In this document: piece after piece, positions 33,954-46,324 of the stretch
How the letters are laid out: each line of letters starts with the position of its first letter
Numbering within the stretch: position 1 is the stretch's first letter
Origin: Fidelibacterota bacterium
GTDB taxonomy: Bacteria; Fidelibacterota; Marinisomatia; Marinisomatales; TCS55
Direction: 5' to 3'
NCBI GenBank assembly: GCA_002730315.1
Contig: PBZW01000070.1
Span: forward strand, 1-47,318
DNA: 47,318 bases
Position numbers and translations under genes: made by a program
The notes under the pieces: model-generated
Databases searched by the model: none
What the model saw: only the letters and a program-made list of their open reading frames with translations
Told to the model about the DNA's origin: nothing

Positions 33954-34594
33954 AGAAAAAGATTTTATTTTTTCTGGGGGTAGTTTTTGGGAAATGGATC
34001 TTGAAATTCTTGTATGGAACCAGTCGCTGGCATATTGAAGGCGATGGGCAAATTGAAAAATTGAGAGCAGAAGGACGCTCTATCATTTTTGCCATTTGGC
34101 ATGGAAATCTATTACCCGGATATATGTATGTGGCGGATAAACAGCCCTATGGTGTGGCGGGAAAACACGGGGATGCAGAAATCATTTCACGAATTGCTAT
34201 AAAATTAGGTTATATACCCATTCGGGGATCAAGTTCGGATGGCGGTCGAGAAGCCTATATGAAAATTGTAAATGTATTAAATAAAAAAGGTTCGCTTGTG
34301 TTTATTACGCCCGATGGACCAAAAGGTCCGGCCAAAGAACTAAAACCTGGGACAATAAAAGCTGCTATGCGTACGGGTGCAGCTATTTTACCAGTTGGAA
34401 GCGCTACCTCAAAACATTGGAAACCAACCAATTGGGATACGTTTTATGTGGTAAAACCCTTTGGACAAATTCATCTTTTGATCGGCGACCCCATGACATT
34501 TTCTGAAAATGATAATTTTAATGAATGCTCTTCAAAATTAAAGTTAGAGTTGGACAGGTTGGAGCAGGAGGCCATGAAACGTGCAGGAATTTGA
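33950..34594 (+). CDS. DUF374 family acyltransferase (LpxJ-like candidate)
   Basis: 214 aa; FAIWHGNLLPGYMYV, GKHGDAEIISRIAIKLGYIPIRGSSSDGGREAY, ITPDGPKGPAKELKPGTIKAA are DUF374 motifs. Sits between lpxB and lpxK with overlaps. Confidence 0.85.
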   Translation: MKKKILFFLGVVFGKWILKFLYGTSRWHIEGDGQIEKLRAEGRSIIFAIWHGNLLPGYMYVADKQPYGVAGKHGDAEIISRIAIKLGYIPIRGSSSDGGREAYMKIVNVLNKKGSLVFITPDGPKGPAKELKPGTIKAAMRTGAAILPVGSATSKHWKPTNWDTFYVVKPFGQIHLLIGDPMTFSENDNFNECSSKLKLELDRLEQEAMKRAGI

Positions 34595-35612
34595 TATCCA
34601 TTCGCTGAAAAAATATCGTTTTCTGCTATGGCCATTAGGGTTCTTTTATTGGCTGCTTATCTTTTGGCGGAATTTCTTTTATAACATCGGTTTCTTTGTT
34701 TCCCGAAAATTGCCTTGTAAGGTCATCAGTGTGGGTAATCTATCTGTAGGTGGTACAGGAAAAACACCTTTTGTCATTTTATTAGCAAACATTTTAGCGG
34801 AACAGGGAAAGTCAGTTGCAATATTAAGCCGGGGGTATAAAAGACAATCCAAAGGAACCCTGGTAGTCAGTAACGGAAATGAAATAAAAACATCATTGGA
34901 CGAGGGTGGCGATGAGCCTTTTATGATAGCTAATAAATTGGGGAAAGTACCGGTGGTGGTGGATGAGAACCGCTATCGTGGTGGGCAATTCATTTGCAAT
35001 GAATTCAATCCGGACATTATTATTATGGATGATGCCTTTCAGCATCGCCGTGTATTTCGGGATGTGGATATTGTACTGATGAACAGCAATAATCATAATC
35101 CCCGTCTTCTGCCTTATGGCCTACTCCGGGAACCGCTGGGAAATGTAAAACGGGCGGATATAACGATCTTTACGAAAACAAACCTGACACCTCCAAAGGA
35201 ATCACTGATCCAAACCGTATCTAAAAAATGTTCACTTACATTCATGTCAGAATTGGTACCAGCAAGTGATCTGATCGGAATGGATGGGACCACTAAACCA
35301 ATAGAAGATATCAATCAGCCTGCGGTGGCGGTATCGGGAGTTGGGGATCCAGACAGTTTTGAAGTAATACTGGATGAAACCGGGATGGATTATGTTCACC
35401 ATTTTCGTCATGATGACCATGCTGAATATTCAGACACAGACTTGGAAGTGATCAGGGAAGTCTTCTTATCTGCAGAAGCAACGGCTATCATTACAACAGA
35501 AAAAGACTTGGCTAAACTGGAAGGATTAAATGATCTACCAGTTTTTGCTATAAAAGTTGATATTGGATTATCAGAAAAAGATCAGGCTGATTTATTATAC
35601 TTAATTAACTGA
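34581..35612 (+). CDS. lpxK: Tetraacyldisaccharide 4'-kinase
   Basis: 343 aa; VISVGNLSVGGTGKTPFVILLAN, AILSRGYKRQSKG, DEPFMIANKL, IIMDDAFQHRRVFRDVDIVLMNS. Confidence 0.95.
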   Translation: MQEFDIHSLKKYRFLLWPLGFFYWLLIFWRNFFYNIGFFVSRKLPCKVISVGNLSVGGTGKTPFVILLANILAEQGKSVAILSRGYKRQSKGTLVVSNGNEIKTSLDEGGDEPFMIANKLGKVPVVVDENRYRGGQFICNEFNPDIIIMDDAFQHRRVFRDVDIVLMNSNNHNPRLLPYGLLREPLGNVKRADITIFTKTNLTPPKESLIQTVSKKCSLTFMSELVPASDLIGMDGTTKPIEDINQPAVAVSGVGDPDSFEVILDETGMDYVHHFRHDDHAEYSDTDLEVIREVFLSAEATAIITTEKDLAKLEGLNDLPVFAIKVDIGLSEKDQADLLYLIN

Positions 35613-35618
35613 CCTTAT

Positions 35619-38600
35619 TTAAAACTGGGCAACGCCCCAGGCGAACATGACGCCCACAAAAGTGAGCATGAGAGGCCAGCCTGTGTTAACAAATCGGCGG
35701 GCATCGGGGTTCTCAAATACATGGATCTGGAATTGATGACTTGTGGTGGCTCCCCGTTCATCAATGGCAGTAATGATCACATCGTGAGGCCCTCGTTGAT
35801 TGTTCCGAGGTCTCCATTTGAAAAGTCCGGTCTTTTTATTGAATGATGCATATTTAGGCAAACGTATGGAGCGGAAAGAAACCTTGTCGTTATTCAAATC
35901 TTCCGCAATAATCTTATACCGATACTCATATCCCGTCAATCCTACTGGTTTGGGCTTGGAAACCACAGACGGAGGTATGTTGACAAAGACCTTTCCGCGC
36001 TGAGTGTCTTCATGATAACCGTCAGACACCTTGACTTCAAATTCGTGCTTGTTCACCTGGGATGCTTTAGGGATCCAGACCAGTTTTCCAGTATTGGACA
36101 TCTGCATTCCCTGGGGACCTTTGACCAATTCATAATGGAGCTCTGCGTCTGAATTCTTATCCTCCACTTGTACTTGGTATTTATACATTTCTTCCACCAA
36201 GGCCGCTTTCGGCGCTTGGGACACGATGGTTGCTGGATGGTTCACATAGAGATCAAATGACTGTTCATCTTTGGTATATCCGTCAGACACCACTAGTTTT
36301 ATGGGATAGGTATCGTACTGATCTTTACCCGGGGTCCACAACAGTGTTCCTGTAAACTCGTCTACTTCCATACCGTCCGGGAATTCTTCTAATGTATAGC
36401 GAATGGTGCTTCTTCGTTCTACAATAACTTTTGGAGGCTTCCCTTTTGATCCTTGGAAAAATTCCCATAGAGCATCTTTAACACTTACGGACCGATCATC
36501 TTTTTCTTCGATGATGATAATCAGCCGATCGTCCTCCCAAAAAATAGAGTGCACATAACGCTTCAAATTCAGACGGCTGAATTCTTCAGAATCCATTTCA
36601 CCCTGTCCCGTTTGATATACCACTTCAGTCGCGTTCCAATCGCCAATATAGCGATCCACGTTTTCCCGGTAGACGTCGTCGGCGATATTCACGGCATAGA
36701 TGCGTATCATTTCTATGTCCTCGATTTTTACAAGGTGTGCATAGGGCAGGAGTGTTCCCTTGTTCAGATCGGTGGTCATGATCTTGTACTTATACTGCTG
36801 ACCTACCGTGGCTTTCATAACAGGAATGGATACGAGCTTTATGGGTGCATTGATAAAAAAATTAGCTTCTACCGTCCTGACATCCATGCCATCGTCAATC
36901 TCGATCTTTAAAAGACCAAAGTCCATTTCATCACGGGTAGGTTCCCATCGCAAACGACCGGTGAATGGATCCATGCGCATTCCTTCCGGCATTTCAACAG
37001 CGGTAAAAGTAAGTTCAGCATTCACATTTGGATCATTAACCTCAAGCTGAAAATCCCATGCATAGCCCAAATTTACTTTGTTCATCGGTGGTGGAGCTTC
37101 GTCGATCACTGGTGGATGGTTCACGTATAAGGTTACTTCCTGTGTGTCAGCTGCTACACCATGGTTCACCGCCACAGCAAAATTCTGGGAATCTATCTGT
37201 GCTACGGCAGGTGTCCATTCAATATTTCCTGTTTCTGAAATGGACATCCCTTCCGGGTGATAGAGCATTTTATATTTCAATTCCTGTTCCAGATCGGGCC
37301 GCCATACGCCTACTTGATATTTAAACAGTTCATTCACTCGAATGATAGAGTCCGGTTCAGATAATATCTTCACCCCGGCTCTAGCAAATAGTTTGAATTC
37401 TTGGGCGGCTCTGTCAAACCCATCTGAGGCTACCAGTCGTACGTTATAAATATTCACATGACTGCTGTCCGTCTGCCAATACAATGCGCCGCTGGAATCC
37501 ATTTCCATTCCATCGGGAGCAGCTTCCAAAAGGAATTGGATCTTGGCATCAGTATTGAGGTCATTTACCACTGGAGAATATGTAAATAATGATTTTGCAA
37601 CAAATTCTGTTTCTTCAGGATCGGAAATGAATTCGGGTGTGTCATTCACGTAGATCCACAGCCGCTCATCATATCCTTCCAGGTGTGGAATAACCTTATA
37701 GGTCAACAGAGAATCTTCCTCTTCCGATTCCAACTCCACGTCTTCGCCTACTTTCATTTCCACATGATAGGCCAGTTTATAGGCTCCAAGCTGTGTACCG
37801 TTAGGAACCCACTGAATGGAACGTGTTTCATAATGGAAGAACATTCCTTTAGGCGGTGGTAATAACCACCTGAAACTGTAGAACTGGTTGGCTTCATCTT
37901 CAGGAATAGAATAGACAAATAATTGATCGATCGGTAAAACGTGCCTTGGCAATACGCCTTTGGGCAAAGGTTGTCCTAATGATTTCATAGGTTTGGCGCC
38001 CAATGAAATGGGTCCTGCACCACGACCTGCTATCTCCGGGAATATTTTTAATAGATCAACAGGTTCAGCCTGAGTATCTTGTACTGTTGGTTTATCAACC
38101 GGCGGAGGTAAACCAAGATCTGTGAGAAAAACAGACGTTTCATCCCCATCCCAGCCAGCTGCAATGGTCGTACCCATATACTGTCCGTTCGACACTATGG
38201 GGAGAGCTGAAAAGACCTGTATATCCACAGAATCGACTGTCAGCGTAAAATAACTTTCGGTTTTCTCTGCTGGTGTTTCTGCCCCGAAAGAGACTGTCAT
38301 CATATTCATTTCACCTGACACAAGGAGAATATCTTTATACCCATCCTGGTCAAAATCAGAGGTTTGAATGTTTGATAATGGACCTGCTTCATTGGGAATA
38401 TCATCTATAGCAACACCCGCATCAGATAATGTAAGACCGATCAAATGACCGCTTTGAAAGGGGGTAATTACATCCAAAAAACCATCTGCATCCCAATCAG
38501 TAACAGCAACAGAACGAGCAATAAATCCATTCATGCCAGGAATAGTTGTATGCGTAGCCGGTCCTTCTTTAAATGATCCATTTTTATTTTTAAACGGCTG

Positions 38601-39287
38601 TGCTTTAAGCACATTCCCTTCAGGGCTAAAACTGATAATATCATCTAACCCGTCTCTATTCCAGTCGACTACACCTGCATAAACAAATCCCGACCCAAAG
38701 CGCATGTTTTCTGGTTCCAGTCGACTGGTAACCATCAATTGTCCTTCATCATCCACATCCACAATAGCCAAACCTCTTACTGGACTTCCCAGCGATACCA
38801 CTAATTCCTGGTCATCATCACCGTCCTGGTTAAACAATTCAAAATTATGACAGCGTAAAAATGTATTGCGTTCTGAAAGGTTCAAGGTACTGGCCGGCGA
38901 TTCGCTGAATCCTTCACCATCCCAAGGATAGTAATACACAATGGGGTGTAGGATGCGCTCTTCGTTCTCATCCGTTAGATTCATAACCGTGATCAATTCA
39001 GGAGAGCCATTGCCATCCAAGTCACCAAGTTTCAAATTCACAAAATTACCCAATAAGCCGTCCGGGGCAGCCAACTCCCAATTGAGCTGTTGGTAGCCAT
39101 CGCCATCGATTTCATAATAACGGATCATCGAAACAGAGCGGCCATTCTCTTGTCCGATTTCTACTGCGGCGAATTCAATCAATCCGTCACCGTCCAGATC
39201 AAATGTACCTTCCATGTGTATGATTTGCAGATCTTTTCCAGACAGCATTGCCATCAACAACATAAACTTGGAAATCATTCGCATCAT
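35619..39287 (-). CDS. Large secreted/anchored protein with FG-GAP-like N-terminus and multiple Ig-like (He_PIG-type) repeats
   Basis: 1222 aa; DLDGDGLIEFAAVE, DLDGNGSPELITV, DWDADGFLDVITP, DFDQDGYKDILLV; repeated ...G..DP.TG.L.W.P...Q...Y.....VSDG... units; C-terminal hydrophobic segment WPLMLTFVGVMFAWGVAQF. Confidence 0.8.
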   Translation of the reverse strand: MMRMISKFMLLMAMLSGKDLQIIHMEGTFDLDGDGLIEFAAVEIGQENGRSVSMIRYYEIDGDGYQQLNWELAAPDGLLGNFVNLKLGDLDGNGSPELITVMNLTDENEERILHPIVYYYPWDGEGFSESPASTLNLSERNTFLRCHNFELFNQDGDDDQELVVSLGSPVRGLAIVDVDDEGQLMVTSRLEPENMRFGSGFVYAGVVDWNRDGLDDIISFSPEGNVLKAQPFKNKNGSFKEGPATHTTIPGMNGFIARSVAVTDWDADGFLDVITPFQSGHLIGLTLSDAGVAIDDIPNEAGPLSNIQTSDFDQDGYKDILLVSGEMNMMTVSFGAETPAEKTESYFTLTVDSVDIQVFSALPIVSNGQYMGTTIAAGWDGDETSVFLTDLGLPPPVDKPTVQDTQAEPVDLLKIFPEIAGRGAGPISLGAKPMKSLGQPLPKGVLPRHVLPIDQLFVYSIPEDEANQFYSFRWLLPPPKGMFFHYETRSIQWVPNGTQLGAYKLAYHVEMKVGEDVELESEEEDSLLTYKVIPHLEGYDERLWIYVNDTPEFISDPEETEFVAKSLFTYSPVVNDLNTDAKIQFLLEAAPDGMEMDSSGALYWQTDSSHVNIYNVRLVASDGFDRAAQEFKLFARAGVKILSEPDSIIRVNELFKYQVGVWRPDLEQELKYKMLYHPEGMSISETGNIEWTPAVAQIDSQNFAVAVNHGVAADTQEVTLYVNHPPVIDEAPPPMNKVNLGYAWDFQLEVNDPNVNAELTFTAVEMPEGMRMDPFTGRLRWEPTRDEMDFGLLKIEIDDGMDVRTVEANFFINAPIKLVSIPVMKATVGQQYKYKIMTTDLNKGTLLPYAHLVKIEDIEMIRIYAVNIADDVYRENVDRYIGDWNATEVVYQTGQGEMDSEEFSRLNLKRYVHSIFWEDDRLIIIIEEKDDRSVSVKDALWEFFQGSKGKPPKVIVERRSTIRYTLEEFPDGMEVDEFTGTLLWTPGKDQYDTYPIKLVVSDGYTKDEQSFDLYVNHPATIVSQAPKAALVEEMYKYQVQVEDKNSDAELHYELVKGPQGMQMSNTGKLVWIPKASQVNKHEFEVKVSDGYHEDTQRGKVFVNIPPSVVSKPKPVGLTGYEYRYKIIAEDLNNDKVSFRSIRLPKYASFNKKTGLFKWRPRNNQRGPHDVIITAIDERGATTSHQFQIHVFENPDARRFVNTGWPLMLTFVGVMFAWGVAQF

Positions 39288-41332
39288 AAGCTATCAACCG
39301 CAACTGAATCAACTGCAACACTGTCAACACCCATGAATTCTAAAATTTTAAATTTCATTTCTTTTGCTCGTTTGGCGATATCTGCATCTGTATACATTTC
39401 CGAATTTATTCTATATGGATGAAATTCACCTGAAAACGTTATGGTTGTATTCACTGTTTTATTACCAATACTATCTACGACAATTTCTCCAGCAATATCC
39501 CACAATTCAATTGCTCGCATATAAATAGACAGGTTGTGACGATTATCCGCTAACGGTGTTCGAACAGAAATATAGGAATTATTTTTTGTTTTCTTCTCGT
39601 TTTCACTGTTATATATCAAAATGCTGTTTTCTGCTTCAGCCAGTCTCAACGATTCAGGAAAACCTTCAAATTGGTATGATGGATAATGGGATAACTTTGA
39701 TTGCCAGTTAGACGGATCCAGGTCTTGGATCAACGAATCCACATGAGGTGATATACTGGCAGTGAATTCATTATTAGTTAAGTTATGGTTCAATGTTAAA
39801 ACGGATATTTTATCCATGCTATCTGGTCTCGCAACATAGGAGAATTCAGCATTTTTATTCGTAATTACCTGCCCCAAATTTGCACTAATGTTATGAGAAA
39901 CGGATGGATATTTAGGAAGTTTATGATCTTCAACCAACATATGAAAAGAAGGTACACCATTGAAAACAAAGCGGTCCTCTCCTTTTTCTTTTGGAGGTGT
40001 ATGGACAAAAACCATATATGGTTCGTAGGGTGGCGGCGTGTAAATAATAGGCGGTTTTGTAGTATCTACAACAATAATAGCATAGGAGTGTTCAGCTTCT
40101 TCGATTACCGGCATAATGCGGTGGCGGTCTCCTAATGCATCTATATCAGAGACTAGTTCTTCTTTCAACCGCTGCTCAGCATAAAATTTAAATTCATGTA
40201 CACCTATATCCTCTCTCTTCGGGATCCAGTTTATATAACCCGAGGTAGGATCAAAGTAAGCTCTTTCAGGAGGTTGTGCAAGCCAATGAAAGCTATAAAA
40301 TCCTGTAGTTGTATCCATTGTGGCTTGATAATGCAGTGTATCGCCTAAACGTAGTGTGTCCTCCGGTATAATGGTGATCCCTGGTTCCGGCTTTGCCATA
40401 AAAAGATCATAAATACCAGAATTCACCCTTGATGTAATTACTGTGTTGATATTTTCAGCTGACGTGCTCTCCGGCAAAATAAATAGATTTTCCCCGCTGA
40501 ATATACTTTCTGTCAAAGTAAGAACGCTGTCATAATAGGCCAATGTCATTACTTGCCCGCTGGCAAAAGGTATTTGTAATTCTTCTCTGCTATCCATATC
40601 CAAATCTGTCTTTTGTGTTGCTGAGCCCAATAACTTTAATGCTCCATTTAACGGAAAAGAGTTGTCGTTTGTCACTTTAAATTCATTATTTGTGCTGAAT
40701 AATGCAGTTTTAAGACTATCATTTTCCGGGCTGAATACAACTAAATAGGGTTTCCCATCTACATTAATAAAGTTGGTAAAAATAGGTCCAAAGCCGTTAT
40801 GCAGATTGAACGGGAGATGAATATGTATTGTATTACCATTAAGAGTTTCTCTCTGTTCATTTGCCTGCAGCAGAACAGCCGCGCGATAAGGGCTGCCCAC
40901 AGCTGCGGACACAATTCCAGAAAATGTGTCTATATCAGCATTATTGGCATGTAAAACTTCACCATTATCGATAACCAAATCCCTGGCAATAAATACTGAA
41001 TCCCGCCACGTATATACATGTAGCCACTTGTTACTGTTCTTACGATATCCGGGTAGGTAATCGACTAAAATAATCAATTCACTATCACCGTCATTATCCA
41101 GGTCATATATCAATGCATCTTTTATTATATAATCTTCAGGTTTTATTTGCCACAAGGGTGAATGTGTACCGTCATGTTGAATTTCCACGTAGCGCAGCAC
41201 AGCAGTTGTAAATAATAATACTTCATCTAAACGATTACTGTTTAGATCATAAGGACCGCTAATATTCATATTTCCCGCATGGATAGCAATGTGCAGGAAA
41301 ACTGCATAAATACACCATTTCACTAATCTCAT
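39284..41332 (-). CDS. Secreted FG-GAP-like protein, partially related to the 1222-aa neighbour
   Basis: 682 aa; signal peptide MRLVKWCIYAVFLHIAIHAG; DLDNDGDSELIILV; shares FYSF(R/H)WL...PP...W(V/I)P with the 1222-aa protein; 4-bp overlap with it. Confidence 0.75.
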   Translation of the reverse strand: MRLVKWCIYAVFLHIAIHAGNMNISGPYDLNSNRLDEVLLFTTAVLRYVEIQHDGTHSPLWQIKPEDYIIKDALIYDLDNDGDSELIILVDYLPGYRKNSNKWLHVYTWRDSVFIARDLVIDNGEVLHANNADIDTFSGIVSAAVGSPYRAAVLLQANEQRETLNGNTIHIHLPFNLHNGFGPIFTNFINVDGKPYLVVFSPENDSLKTALFSTNNEFKVTNDNSFPLNGALKLLGSATQKTDLDMDSREELQIPFASGQVMTLAYYDSVLTLTESIFSGENLFILPESTSAENINTVITSRVNSGIYDLFMAKPEPGITIIPEDTLRLGDTLHYQATMDTTTGFYSFHWLAQPPERAYFDPTSGYINWIPKREDIGVHEFKFYAEQRLKEELVSDIDALGDRHRIMPVIEEAEHSYAIIVVDTTKPPIIYTPPPYEPYMVFVHTPPKEKGEDRFVFNGVPSFHMLVEDHKLPKYPSVSHNISANLGQVITNKNAEFSYVARPDSMDKISVLTLNHNLTNNEFTASISPHVDSLIQDLDPSNWQSKLSHYPSYQFEGFPESLRLAEAENSILIYNSENEKKTKNNSYISVRTPLADNRHNLSIYMRAIELWDIAGEIVVDSIGNKTVNTTITFSGEFHPYRINSEMYTDADIAKRAKEMKFKILEFMGVDSVAVDSVAVDSL

Positions 41333-41587: not shown

Positions 41588-42508
41588 ATGCTAAAAAGAG
41601 CTTTTCTTTTTAATCATCTCATTCCCTTACTCTTATTTGCCCAGAGCGACCTTTACCCCATCCAGGATTATTATGGCGGCGGCATCGGCTATAGTCCAAT
41701 GTATATGACCTTAGATTCTATTCCGGGTTCATCAAAAATGTCTGCATTGGGTTTAAATACCGATAATTTCAAAACTCCGTTTATAGTACATGGTGGAGAA
41801 GGATTTACTCACATTGCCGGACGCTGGCGCTTGGGTGGTTATGCAGGGATAGGTTCATCTTCTATCAGCAATATCATGGATGTATATTTCTACCAAGAGA
41901 CCAATGATTCTGCAGGTATACAGCAGGAATCATCTCCATTGGCCAATGATGGTGATAAAATTGTAGCCTACGAAGGCAGCTTCAGGCCAACTATCAATGC
42001 CAAATTCTCTTTTACGCTTGGGGCGGTAATGCTGGAGTATGTTGTGCCGATATTCAGAGACCTGGAAATATCCGGGGGGACCCTCATGGGAATTGGGCGT
42101 GTTAATGTCAGTATCGATCAGTACACGGGAGAGGCCCAGTGGAATAGCCTCTTTTCGAATTATTATGGCACTGTAGAAAATGGGATTATGTATTACAATA
42201 TTGATTCATCATATACAAGCAATCAGGCAGATTCTGTTATAGCCGGTTTGCAAAGCACTACTCTGACACCAGTTAATGGATATGGAGGTTTAACAGATTT
42301 AAGCGGTACGTTCTTCAACTTTCAACCATATGTTGCAGTTAAATGGCAAATTATGGATCGAGTAGGGCTACGGTTGAGTTTGGGTTATAACCAAGGAACA
42401 ATTGGACACGGACAATGGTTTCTCAATGGAAGAAAACAGATATCAGATTCCCCAAAATCGTCTTTGCGTGGATTGACCATTCGTACAATGTTCTATTTTG
42501 GCCTATAG
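41588..42508 (+). CDS. Putative outer-membrane beta-barrel protein
   Basis: 306 aa; signal peptide (MLKRAFLFNHLIPLLLFAQS), Gly/aromatic strands, ends ...LRGLTIRTMFYFGL. Confidence 0.6.
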   Translation: MLKRAFLFNHLIPLLLFAQSDLYPIQDYYGGGIGYSPMYMTLDSIPGSSKMSALGLNTDNFKTPFIVHGGEGFTHIAGRWRLGGYAGIGSSSISNIMDVYFYQETNDSAGIQQESSPLANDGDKIVAYEGSFRPTINAKFSFTLGAVMLEYVVPIFRDLEISGGTLMGIGRVNVSIDQYTGEAQWNSLFSNYYGTVENGIMYYNIDSSYTSNQADSVIAGLQSTTLTPVNGYGGLTDLSGTFFNFQPYVAVKWQIMDRVGLRLSLGYNQGTIGHGQWFLNGRKQISDSPKSSLRGLTIRTMFYFGL

Positions 42509-42549: not shown

Positions 42550-44157
42550 ATGAACAACAAAAAGAAATTTCAACGATTACCTTTTACCATGACATTTATT
42601 ACGGTGTTATTATTAGCGCTGATTCCACTGTCACAAATCCTGTATTCAAAAAATCCATACAGCGCCATTGAAGACAAATTCAAAATCATGAATCAAATTT
42701 TATATTATATCAACCAGCTTTATTTTGAAGATGTAGATATGGATGAACTAATGGAAGGTGCATTTCATGGTATTTTTGAAAAACTTGATCCCCACTCGAC
42801 CTATATAGCCGCAAAACAGCAGGAGGAAATAGATGAACTTTTTCGAGGTTCTTTTCAAGGGATAGGAATCGAATTCGATATCCTGAACGGTTACATCACT
42901 GTAATTTCACCTGTGGCCGACAGCCCCTCTGAACGCGGGGGTCTTATGCCCGGTGACCAAATTATTGCTATCAATGGCGAAGACGCTTATGAAATCACCA
43001 AAAAAGATGTTTTCAAAAAACTACGAGGACCCAAAGGCACCAGGGTGGATATTACAATCAGGCGGTTCGGTGGTGAACAGTTTGATGTAACTATTATTCG
43101 GGATGATATTCCTATATATAGCGTCCGAGCATCATTAATGCTGGATCTTGAAACGGGTTATATTTGGCTCACACGGTTTTCTGCAACTACTGATGAAGAA
43201 GTGAGTGCTGCCCTTAACCAGCTGGAAAATCGTGGCATGAAAAAACTTATTTTGGATTTACGAAACAATAGCGGCGGCTTCCTGGAACAGGCTGCTGCCA
43301 TCAGTAATTTATTTATTGCCCGAGAAGACACACTAGTTTTTACTAAAGGTAAAAGCAAAAAAATGGAACAAGTGTTCATTTCAGATCCAACAAAAGGTCG
43401 TGAGGATTTTCCATTAATTGTATTGATCAACCGCGGATCAGCCAGCGCCAGTGAAATTGTAGCAGGGTCTATACAGGACCTGGACCGTGGGTTGGTCGTT
43501 GGTGAGACTAGTTTTGGTAAAGGGTTAGTTCAGCGGCAATTACCTTTGAATGACGGATCAGCAATCCGCGTAACCATTGCCCGTTATTATACCCCCAGTG
43601 GACGGCTTATTCAGCGCCCCTACGAAAATGGGGATACACGGAATTATTACAAAGACTTATACATTAAAAATCGTGAATCTGTCCTGGATTCATTAAAGCA
43701 ACTAAAACCCAAGTATAAAACAAGGTCCGGCAGGATTGTATACGGCGGGGGCGGTATAACACCAGATCAGCATATTACATGGGATTTGAATCTTCAAAAA
43801 AATACGCAGCGTTTGCTTACCCATACAATGCGCCCGTTTTTCAACTGGGGATCAAATTACGCCAGTAATCACCGCGATGAACTTGATAATTATGAAAGTT
43901 TCAAGACCGATTGGGTATTGGATGATAGCGATTTCCAGATGTTCCTGGATTACGTTTCCTCAGAAACTATTGAATTGAACCAAGAAGAATTAGAGTTGGA
44001 CAAAGATTATATTTTAAACATGCTAAAATCGGAAATAGCCAGCGCCCATTGGGGTAAAGATGAAGCTATCGGTATTCGTTTAAACTATGATAGCCAGGTC
44101 ATGGATGCTATAAAATATTTTAATGAAGCCGCTGGTTTCATCAATAATTCACAGTAA
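42550..44157 (+). CDS. S41 family C-terminal processing peptidase (CtpA/Prc-like)
   Basis: 535 aa; PDZ domain GIGIEFDILNGYITVISPVADSPSERGGLMPGDQIIAINGED, and catalytic region LRNNSGGFLEQAAAISNLF...RGSASASEIVAGSIQDLDRGLVVGETSFGKGLVQ. Confidence 0.95.
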   Translation: MNNKKKFQRLPFTMTFITVLLLALIPLSQILYSKNPYSAIEDKFKIMNQILYYINQLYFEDVDMDELMEGAFHGIFEKLDPHSTYIAAKQQEEIDELFRGSFQGIGIEFDILNGYITVISPVADSPSERGGLMPGDQIIAINGEDAYEITKKDVFKKLRGPKGTRVDITIRRFGGEQFDVTIIRDDIPIYSVRASLMLDLETGYIWLTRFSATTDEEVSAALNQLENRGMKKLILDLRNNSGGFLEQAAAISNLFIAREDTLVFTKGKSKKMEQVFISDPTKGREDFPLIVLINRGSASASEIVAGSIQDLDRGLVVGETSFGKGLVQRQLPLNDGSAIRVTIARYYTPSGRLIQRPYENGDTRNYYKDLYIKNRESVLDSLKQLKPKYKTRSGRIVYGGGGITPDQHITWDLNLQKNTQRLLTHTMRPFFNWGSNYASNHRDELDNYESFKTDWVLDDSDFQMFLDYVSSETIELNQEELELDKDYILNMLKSEIASAHWGKDEAIGIRLNYDSQVMDAIKYFNEAAGFINNSQ

Positions 44158-44258: not shown

Positions 44259-44888
44259 ATGCTAGTCGAATATTTCGTTAACGGCGGACCTTTCATGTGG
44301 CCAATTCTCATATCACTTGCTTTTGGTCTTGCTTTTACAGGTGAGCGTTTCTATACGCTGATTATGTCATCAATAAATACGCAAAAGTTTTTTGATGATG
44401 TAAATACAACATTAGATGATCAAGGTGTTGCAGCAACGCTCGAATTATGCGAAAAGACAAATGGCCCGGTTGCAGAAATTTTTCACGCCGGACTTTCACG
44501 GATGCACCGTGGCATCACTGAGGTGGAAAAGGCGATCCAAAACGCAGGTTCGCTGGAAATGTCATTTCTGGAAAAGAATATGATCTGGCTGAATGCAGTC
44601 ATTACCATTGCGCCTATGCTTGGATTTACAGGTACGGTTGCCGGTATGATTAATGCTTTTGATGCAATTGCAGCAGCAGATGATATTTCTCCCGCTGTTG
44701 TTGCCGGGGGTATTTCACAAGCCCTTTTGACAACCGCTTTTGGGTTAATTGTAGCAATGATCATCCAGGTTTTCCAGAATGTCTTTGTTTCACGCATTGA
44801 CAAACTGGTCTTAGATATGGAAGAACATTCCGTCCAGCTAGTTGACCATCTATTTGAGCTGGAAACAAAGAAAAAGAAGAAGAAATAA
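44259..44888 (+). CDS. exbB: MotA/TolQ/ExbB proton channel family protein
   Basis: 209 aa; VITIAPMLGFTGTVAGMINAFDAIAAADDISPAVVAGGISQALLTTAFGLIVAMI. Confidence 0.92.
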   Translation: MLVEYFVNGGPFMWPILISLAFGLAFTGERFYTLIMSSINTQKFFDDVNTTLDDQGVAATLELCEKTNGPVAEIFHAGLSRMHRGITEVEKAIQNAGSLEMSFLEKNMIWLNAVITIAPMLGFTGTVAGMINAFDAIAAADDISPAVVAGGISQALLTTAFGLIVAMIIQVFQNVFVSRIDKLVLDMEEHSVQLVDHLFELETKKKKKK

Positions 44889-44897
44889 ACCCTACCC

Positions 44898-45293
44898 ATG
44901 ATAAAAAAGCGCCGCTTTAAAGGCGGAGAAATACCCACTTCTTCAATGGCAGACATTGCTTTTCTGCTACTCATATTCTTCCTGGTAACAACGACTATCG
45001 ATATGGACAAAGGGTTGGGTATAATTCTGCCTGCTGAAGGTGAGGAAATTGAGATCAAAAAGGATAATATCCTCAATTGCCTGATTAATTCTCAGGGTTA
45101 CGTTCTCCTGGGTGGTGAGCCCATAAAGACCAGGGATATTAATAAAGAAATAAGGCGCAAAATTGCTGAAAATAATAAACTGATTATTTCTGTGAAAGCG
45201 CACGAAAAAACAAAGTACAGTGATTACATAGCAGTAATAGATCAGTTGAAAATGGCCAATGCCAAACGTATTTCCATCGCGGAGACAGACTGA
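44898..45293 (+). CDS. exbD: ExbD/TolR family biopolymer transport protein (copy 1)
   Basis: 131 aa; EIPTSSMADIAFLLLIFFLVTTTIDMDKGLGIILP. Confidence 0.92.
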   Translation: MIKKRRFKGGEIPTSSMADIAFLLLIFFLVTTTIDMDKGLGIILPAEGEEIEIKKDNILNCLINSQGYVLLGGEPIKTRDINKEIRRKIAENNKLIISVKAHEKTKYSDYIAVIDQLKMANAKRISIAETD

Positions 45294-45704
45294 TTGGAAG
45301 TCAAACGTAAAACTCAGGTCTCCACCGATATTCCAACGGCATCTATGCCGGATATTATTTTTATGCTGTTGATCTTTTTTATGGTTACAACAGTTCTCCG
45401 GGAATACTCAGGTCTGCCGGTGGAACTACCAAAAGCAAAACGGATTGAAAAGCTCAAATCAAAGCGGCATACATCTCATATTTGGATATCAAAAGAAGGC
45501 CTTGTTTCCATCCAGGATAAACTGCACAGCGTAGATAATGTGCGTCACGTGATGTATGATATCCGTGCAGCTGATCCGTTATTGACTGTATCGTTAAAGG
45601 CAGATAAATCAGCAAAAATGGGGCTGATATCTGAGGTGCATAATGAACTTAGAAAAGCAGATGCCCTGAAGCTGAATTATTCAACCAAAACAGCCGTTGA
45701 ATAA
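45294..45704 (+). CDS. exbD: ExbD/TolR family biopolymer transport protein (copy 2), TTG start
   Basis: 136 aa; DIPTASMPDIIFMLLIFFMVTTVLREYSGLPVELPKAKR; TTG start directly abutting the stop of copy 1. Confidence 0.9.
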   Translation: MEVKRKTQVSTDIPTASMPDIIFMLLIFFMVTTVLREYSGLPVELPKAKRIEKLKSKRHTSHIWISKEGLVSIQDKLHSVDNVRHVMYDIRAADPLLTVSLKADKSAKMGLISEVHNELRKADALKLNYSTKTAVE

Positions 45705-45706
45705 GT

Positions 45707-46324
45707 ATGGGGAAATATACACCTTTATTAAAATTTAATTATCCCGTTACAGTAAGGATTACTGGTTTATGTGGAATTATAATGATAACATTTGGATTTT
45801 TATTTATTCCCCGGAGTTTTGATATTGTTGTTTTAGAAGACGCCGATCAAATCATAATTGAACAGATTGATATTCCCCAAACCCAACAGATCGATTTGCC
45901 GCCACCACCAGCTCGTCCTTCTGTCCCTATTGAGTCAGAAGATGAAGATTTAGCGGACGATTTAACTATTGAAGAAACGGATTTGGAAAGTTTTGAAGCG
46001 TGGGATGCCCCGCCGCCGCCGCCTGAAGGTCCAAGGGTAAAATTTATCCCTTACGATGATCCCCCGAAACCGCTGACGACCATTAAGCCTAAATATCCGG
46101 AGATCGCACAGGAGGCCGGCATTGAAGGTACTGTTATTGTGCAGGTGTTTGTTGATAAAAAAGGTAGGGTTAAGGAAACGATTATTTTAAAAGGTATCCC
46201 AAATACAGGGCTGGACGAGGCTGCTATAGATGCCATTCGCAGAACACGTTTTAAACCAGCCAAACAGCGTGAACGAGCTGTAGGTGTTTGGATATCTATC
46301 CCTGTCAATTTCAAGCTTAAATAA
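45707..46324 (+). CDS. tonB: Energy transducer TonB family protein
   Basis: 205 aa; one N-terminal TM, Pro-rich linker (PPPPARP, APPPPPEGP), C-terminal KPKYPEIAQEAGIEGTVIVQVFVDKKGRVKE...LDEAAIDAIRRTRFKPAKQRERAVGVWISIPVNFKL. Confidence 0.95.
   Translation: MGKYTPLLKFNYPVTVRITGLCGIIMITFGFLFIPRSFDIVVLEDADQIIIEQIDIPQTQQIDLPPPPARPSVPIESEDEDLADDLTIEETDLESFEAWDAPPPPPEGPRVKFIPYDDPPKPLTTIKPKYPEIAQEAGIEGTVIVQVFVDKKGRVKETIILKGIPNTGLDEAAIDAIRRTRFKPAKQRERAVGVWISIPVNFKLK

Follow-up and report, generated by a model that had tools for sequence, protein, structure and literature searches.

The GldM and PorM proteins of type IX secretion are inner-membrane-anchored periplasmic rods of several β-domains that carry their anchor at the N-terminus, and bacterial multidomain proteins combining FG-GAP_3 and He_PIG domains are usually variable and are secreted or located at the surface. 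Here, we analyse a locus from Fidelibacterota (SAR406/Marinimicrobia), which are widespread ocean bacteria: contig PBZW01000070.1 (assembly GCA_002730315.1; 47,318 nucleotides, this whole stretch being referred to as the window) encodes a large protein, A, its smaller homologue, B, and a divergently encoded protein of ~306 amino acids (aa), OMP306. The likeness of A to GldM/PorM serves as a lead only, with the anchor of A found at the C-terminus. Both FG-GAP_3 and He_PIG (PF13517, PF05345) score above the Pfam cut-off in A, although A differs from the usual proteins of this kind in being a core gene of near-fixed length with a conserved tail. The Tol-Pal system resembles the locus in its envelope-spanning logic, its ExbB/ExbD/TonB-like neighbours and its periplasmic propeller, but A and B display neither TolB_N nor OmpA/Pal domains in Pfam, the few TolB_N matches of the genome being located elsewhere. 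In outline, the arrangement of A is most readily compared with integrin α of metazoa and with bacterial integrin-type propellers (PMC3192720, PMC8023676), which also combine a seven-bladed FG-GAP propeller exhibiting calcium-type loops with a β-sandwich stalk and one C-terminal hydrophobic helix. However, the thigh and calf domains of integrin α and the short cytoplasmic tail that follows its transmembrane helix are not found in A, which has seven Ig/cadherin-like domains and a helix that ends the protein; no integrin-β-like gene was recognised amongst the Pfam-scanned neighbours, the genome itself not having been searched. The match of the A profile to integrin α-4 (E = 0.007, PDB profile search) covers one propeller stretch only, and the likeness is likely an analogy of layout plus a common propeller superfamily.

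Searches of the PDB by sequence and profile returned only weak propeller matches, to integrin α-4 in the case of A and to a hemolysin-related protein in that of B, with no match to OMP306, and Foldseek comparison of the whole models gave generic propeller, Ig and cadherin matches with low template modelling scores, as the models are multi-domain; we claim no homology from the Foldseek matches. The literature yielded no paper that treats Marinimicrobia and FG-GAP proteins together and nothing on the locus under the names of the phylum or the neighbouring genes plus envelope terms. Whilst the domain families are known, no described system matches this arrangement and the function of the A family has never been described, which agrees with an earlier note on this DNA that had recognised no named system with such a layout. 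Our best-supported statement concerns evolution: a comparison of relatives supports well that A, and specifically A with its C-terminal tail, would function together with OMP306, B being a later accessory. The features on which this analysis is built are as follows, with positions given in the window.

35619–39287, minus strand: A, 1222 aa, with signal peptide, seven-bladed FG-GAP propeller, seven Ig-like (He_PIG/cadherin-like) domains and C-terminal hydrophobic helix (open reading frame (ORF), Pfam, AlphaFold2, phylum-wide family)
39228–39287, minus strand: A residues 1–20, probable Sec signal peptide, read from the sequence
38118–39215, minus strand: A residues 25–390, seven-bladed FG-GAP propeller (AlphaFold2, motif scan, Pfam FG-GAP_3, PDB profile match)
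35715–37943, minus strand: A residues 449–1191, seven tandem Ig-like domains (AlphaFold2; Pfam He_PIG; titin/contactin/cadherin-like rods in Foldseek)
36459–36677, minus strand: A residues 871–943, conserved helical insert within the fifth Ig-like domain, containing DALWEFFQGSKGKPP (AlphaFold2; alignment A1)
35625–35708, minus strand: A residues 1194–1221, extreme C-terminal hydrophobic helix (AlphaFold2; conservation; hydropathy)
39284–41332, minus strand: B, 682 aa, with signal peptide, degenerate FG-GAP propeller (~5 blades), a single Ig-like domain and a C-terminal domain that is all-β, no anchor (ORF, AlphaFold2, BLASTP to A, duplication tree)
40508–41272, minus strand: B residues 21–275, propeller related to that of A (BLASTP, profile, AlphaFold2)
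40067–40360, minus strand: B residues 325–422, Ig-like domain related to the first of A (BLASTP, AlphaFold2)
39389–40021, minus strand: B residues 438–648, all-β domain not present in A (AlphaFold2, confidence mostly >80; alignment A2)
39284–39287, minus strand: 4-bp overlap ATGA of the B stop and A start (ORFs)
41588–42508, plus strand: OMP306, ~306 aa, probable outer-membrane β-barrel, divergent from B/A (sequence pattern)

The layout of A was taken from AlphaFold2 models (A residues 24–1222 and B, with mean predicted local distance difference test (pLDDT) scores of 81.9 and 81.6, respectively); since the predicted template modelling scores are low for both (0.40 and 0.46), the models can be relied on for the folds of single domains but not for how these are positioned towards one another. 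The propeller of A is modelled with 28 strands in seven blades, and a motif scan places six DxDxDG-type loops at residues 30, 89, 155, 208, 264 and 311, so that a seven-bladed FG-GAP propeller with calcium-binding loops, as in integrin α, is predicted. A disordered linker separates the propeller from the Ig-like domains, which are bounded in the model at residues 449–547, 561–636, 648–723, 735–813, 825–1016, 1028–1103 and 1115–1191; the earlier note had counted at least six Ig-like repeats in A only, a number that can now be refined to seven. Pfam reports FG-GAP_3 (E = 2e-17, 63.9 bits against a cut-off of 26.9), He_PIG (E = 3e-41, 140.1 bits against a cut-off of 24, in six stretches) and Big_9 (E = 1e-10). 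The helical insert of the fifth Ig-like domain carries the conserved motif LWEFFQGxKGKPP.

In order to place the locus, we compared 245 Fidelibacterota genomes, 94 of which were rated good; families of relatives are labelled f4, f5 and so on to f31, loci L### and genomes G###. The 73 named loci come from genomes labelled as this phylum, to which the host itself belongs, or from unassigned or broad bins, except for one metagenome-assembled genome titled Sulfurimonas; the search patterns were family-specific and the distribution of A is therefore described within Fidelibacterota, with absence elsewhere not implied. A is retained in 162 of the 245 genomes and in 72 of the good ones, matching at near full length across one order and in f20, and mainly through its C-terminal 250–560 residues, in proteins of ~920–1290 aa, in other families. 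Judging by identity only, the second copies of A that G002 and G019 carry probably stem from contamination during binning; a second A-like gene in G184 (L164:7921-11061), a genome that also has a standard A locus, adjoins a lone TonB gene.

The closest evolutionary partner of A is OMP306. Matches tallied by hand in the 94 good genomes place both genes in 65, A only in 7, OMP306 only in 2 and neither in 20 (Fisher p = 1e-12, uncorrected for kinship). OMP306 is the divergent neighbour of A throughout the order, any B gene lying between the two, as well as in f20, f23, f24, f30 and f31; in f23 it forms a tandem duplicate next to A (L154:13869-15298) without the C-terminal processing protease (Ctp) or ExbB-ExbD-TonB genes, and G063 carries A with two OMP306 genes. 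Joint losses were also found with the flanks intact: LpxK adjoins Ctp in f25 and ExbB in f13, and in f9 both A and OMP306 are gone and B adjoins LpxK (seen directly at the G044 locus and from match coordinates in G056, G151 and G152). The coupling extends to the tail of A. Within their last 40 residues, 107 of 108 complete A homologues have 19 consecutive residues of strong hydrophobicity (mean hydropathy of 1.29 or more), the sole exception being L160 (f19); three further proteins from f16 (L184, L186 and L187) also have polar C-terminal ends and no tail, and all four tail-less homologues come from genomes without OMP306. Across the order, residues W1204, P1205, L1206, F1210, G1212, F1215 and G1218 of the tail are invariant (alignment A1), a conservation that exceeds the needs of a passive anchor.

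Detached ~70-bp copies of the tail-coding DNA occur away from A at G013:C9:7981-8050 (L051), G006:C113:78-147 (L053) and G051:C10:1848-1906 (L052), with 97%, 87% and 90% identity to the query, respectively: one lies on the far side of an AAA_14/DUF4143 gene that has been inserted 3' of A and two follow the apparent end of an RND-transporter gene. The G051 copy differs from the tail of A in the same genome, which suggests transfer between lineages. We also considered the tail as a sorting signal common to other proteins and rejected this, as these copies amount to short pieces of DNA and do not form the ends of other large proteins.

The reading that we favour, tentatively and at a little short of an even chance, is that A is a tail-anchored periplasmic rod that works with OMP306 to link or organise the two membranes, with B as an accessory. 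A would be exported by Sec and would present a calcium-binding propeller head on a stalk of Ig-like domains; at ~4 nm each, seven such domains would span a typical periplasm. The extreme C-terminal helix would anchor A in one of the membranes, the inner membrane being the likeliest, and A would work with OMP306 in such a way that its head comes into contact with the outer membrane. B would be a soluble and fast-evolving accessory, probably co-transcribed with A and probably modulating or capping its head. Several points weigh against this reading. No lysine or arginine is present in the last 21 residues of A in 91 of the 108 homologues, and as the tail thus carries none of the positive residues usual after a stop-transfer helix, placement of A in the inner membrane is not assured. 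The membrane that holds the tail, the tethering role and any physical contact between A, B and OMP306 are all points that we infer. The assignment of OMP306 as a barrel is probable and comes from its sequence pattern, with no informative match in Pfam, NCBIfam or the PDB, including by profile. Families f26–f29 hold both A and OMP306 but unlinked, the co-occurrence counts ignore relatedness, and the covariation of tail and OMP306 may be a single event, since one class contains both f16 and f19. Finally, 48 of 61 relatives carry OmpA/Pal-type domains, which means that tethers other than A are possible; on the same count, the idea that A is a replacement of OmpA/Pal anchors finds no support.

The covariation of tail and OMP306 is fitted equally well by the main alternative, in which the tail docks in OMP306. 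Here, A would be a surface-exposed adhesin or receptor of integrin or cadherin type, its C-terminal helix lying in or passing through OMP306 in the outer membrane, and B would be a soluble co-receptor. This we regard as unlikely, even though it draws on several of the same observations: the tail is missing only from proteins of genomes without OMP306 and is followed by no basic residues, the succession of propeller, β-sandwich stalk and single C-terminal helix resembles integrin α, whose α-4 propeller is matched by the A profile, the Foldseek matches of A are cell-adhesion rods and those of B include integrin ectodomains, and B evolves fast, as surface proteins do. However, A is conserved and syntenic across an order, and its length is nearly constant (1243 ± 30 aa in 88 complete A proteins of the order), which contrasts with adhesins of variable repeat number; furthermore, no known outer-membrane sorting signal was seen in A, and helical anchors are uncommon in the outer membrane.

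We next turn to B, which the earlier note had joined to A as the product of an ancient duplication, one partner soluble and one anchored, made as a unit. Both ORFs have the coordinates and the ATGA overlap given there and lie on the minus strand, and the hydrophobic anchor is indeed found in A and not in B. The homology of the two FG-GAP N-terminal halves is upheld and goes well beyond chance: when the two proteins are compared by BLASTP, their N-terminal ~550 residues and the segment FYSF.W...PP...W.P align at E = 3e-13, and the B profile matches the N-terminus of A at E ~1e-50 in many genomes. The related mid-segment noticed earlier corresponds, in A as in B, to the first Ig domain, which is of He_PIG type. 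The two halves are no longer equivalent, however: the propeller of B is modelled with about 20 strands in five blades, in place of the seven of integrin α, few DxDxDG-type calcium-binding loops are kept (motif scan), and the mean pairwise identity between loci is 26% for B versus 43% for A. B has probably lost two blades and most of its calcium-binding loops. In Pfam, where A scores above cut-off, B reaches only a sub-threshold FG-GAP_3 match (22.7 bits against 26.9) and no He_PIG match at E ≤ 1. Beyond its single Ig-like domain B adds the modelled all-β domain of its own, which is missing from B of several families (L043–L046, L050; alignment A2); the length of B is 745 ± 94 aa (94 proteins). 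Some B proteins without this domain (f4, f5 and f8: L045:9209-10966, L046:6882-8837, L050:5487-7457) display repeated linker motifs, V-[RK]-[QK]-[LIV]-x-L-[TL], possibly strand-forming binding peptides.

B is confined to the one order, where the adjacency holds throughout: B lies immediately 5' of A on the same strand at 59 of 71 named A-bearing loci, comprising all 59 judgeable loci of the order, with a spacing of -4 bp in 23 and mostly within ~50 bp in the others; two further named loci show a B-like match ~1 kb from A. Named loci without B have A at or near a contig end, except for three f20 loci that truly lack it. Outside the order, A stands without B at every locus inspected (f20, f23, f24 and f26–f31). 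A tree of the region common to A and B (24 B, 23 A of the order and 14 single A) separates these into three groups, with Shimodaira–Hasegawa-like approximate likelihood ratio support (SH-aLRT) of 96, 99 and 98, respectively, B and A of the order each forming one clade as an ancient duplication predicts. With the root placed on the side of single A, B would descend from a single event, in the ancestor of the order, that duplicated the head of A together with its first Ig domain; as the tree is unrooted and the B branches are long, this rooting is an inference. The ancient unit is A and not the A–B pair. An obligate A–B heterodimer made as a unit appears improbable: the genes adjoin at every judgeable locus of the order, usually overlapping or a few bases apart, and the identities between loci measured for A correlate with those measured for B (r = 0.83, a value that shared ancestry alone would also give), but A occurs alone outside the order, f9 has lost A and kept B, and it is OMP306 that tracks A. 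The claim that the pair is the functional unit is not supported, with the synteny that had been proposed as its check being kept within the order only.

The remaining genes of the locus flank A and OMP306:

42550–44157, plus strand: S41 C-terminal processing protease (Ctp), downstream of OMP306 (Pfam; synteny)
44259–44888, plus strand: ExbB (Pfam; synteny)
44898–45293, plus strand: ExbD (Pfam; synteny)
45294–45704, plus strand: ExbD (Pfam; synteny)
45707–46324, plus strand: TonB (Pfam; synteny)
34581–35612, plus strand: LpxK, convergent flanking gene (Pfam; kept where A is lost)

For most of the order, and likewise for f20, f24, f30 and f31, the run OMP306-Ctp-ExbB-ExbD-ExbD-TonB follows in divergent orientation, and TolB-type N-domain matches are few and weak in relatives (6/61), both of which are in keeping with an energised module of Tol-Pal or TonB type, where A and B would be periplasmic propellers driven by ExbB-ExbD-ExbD-TonB and Ctp a regulator. 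We consider this quite improbable, as A and B have no TolB-family match in Pfam and the obligate ExbB/TolQ-ExbD/TolR association of Tol-Pal is lacking: f13 and f25 keep ExbB-ExbD-TonB after the loss of A and OMP306, and A occurs without adjoining Ctp-ExbB in f23 and f26–f29. The same families weaken any dependence of A on ExbB-ExbD-TonB. A role of A in lipopolysaccharide or outer-membrane biogenesis with LpxB-DUF374-LpxK is very unlikely, and we rejected it as an essential role: LpxK adjoins A across the order and in f17, f20, f24, f26, f27 and f29 but persists in families that have lost A (f13, f15 and f25) and is unlinked from A in f23, f30 and f31, and the orientation of the genes is for the most part convergent, without co-transcription. 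The convergent gap between A and LpxK is an insertion hot spot, the contents of which vary by genus (L031, L051, L055, L061, L064): a beta-helix protein, AAA_14/DUF4143, a TldD/PmbA pair, an M20 peptidase and a histone-deacetylase-like protein.

Our favoured reading, the periplasmic rod working with OMP306, can be extended further, although we regard this extension as doubtful: A and OMP306 may form an undescribed intermembrane tether, kept across most of Fidelibacterota, that holds the outer membrane without peptidoglycan, with B as an order-specific regulator duplicated from the head. The one described cultured species that we found for the relatives of the host (Candidatus Neomarinimicrobiota, today named Fidelibacterota), Fidelibacter multiformis, is unable to synthesise its own peptidoglycan and becomes coccoid without exogenous muropeptides (PMC11652737). 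A peptidoglycan-independent link between the membranes is of interest because this species is unable to make its own peptidoglycan and, if true, would answer a real question of cell biology in F. multiformis. A large conserved envelope protein and a small predicted outer-membrane protein that are retained or lost as one, the hydrophobic tail of the former varying with the latter, provide a specific and testable handle on how these bacteria build their envelope.

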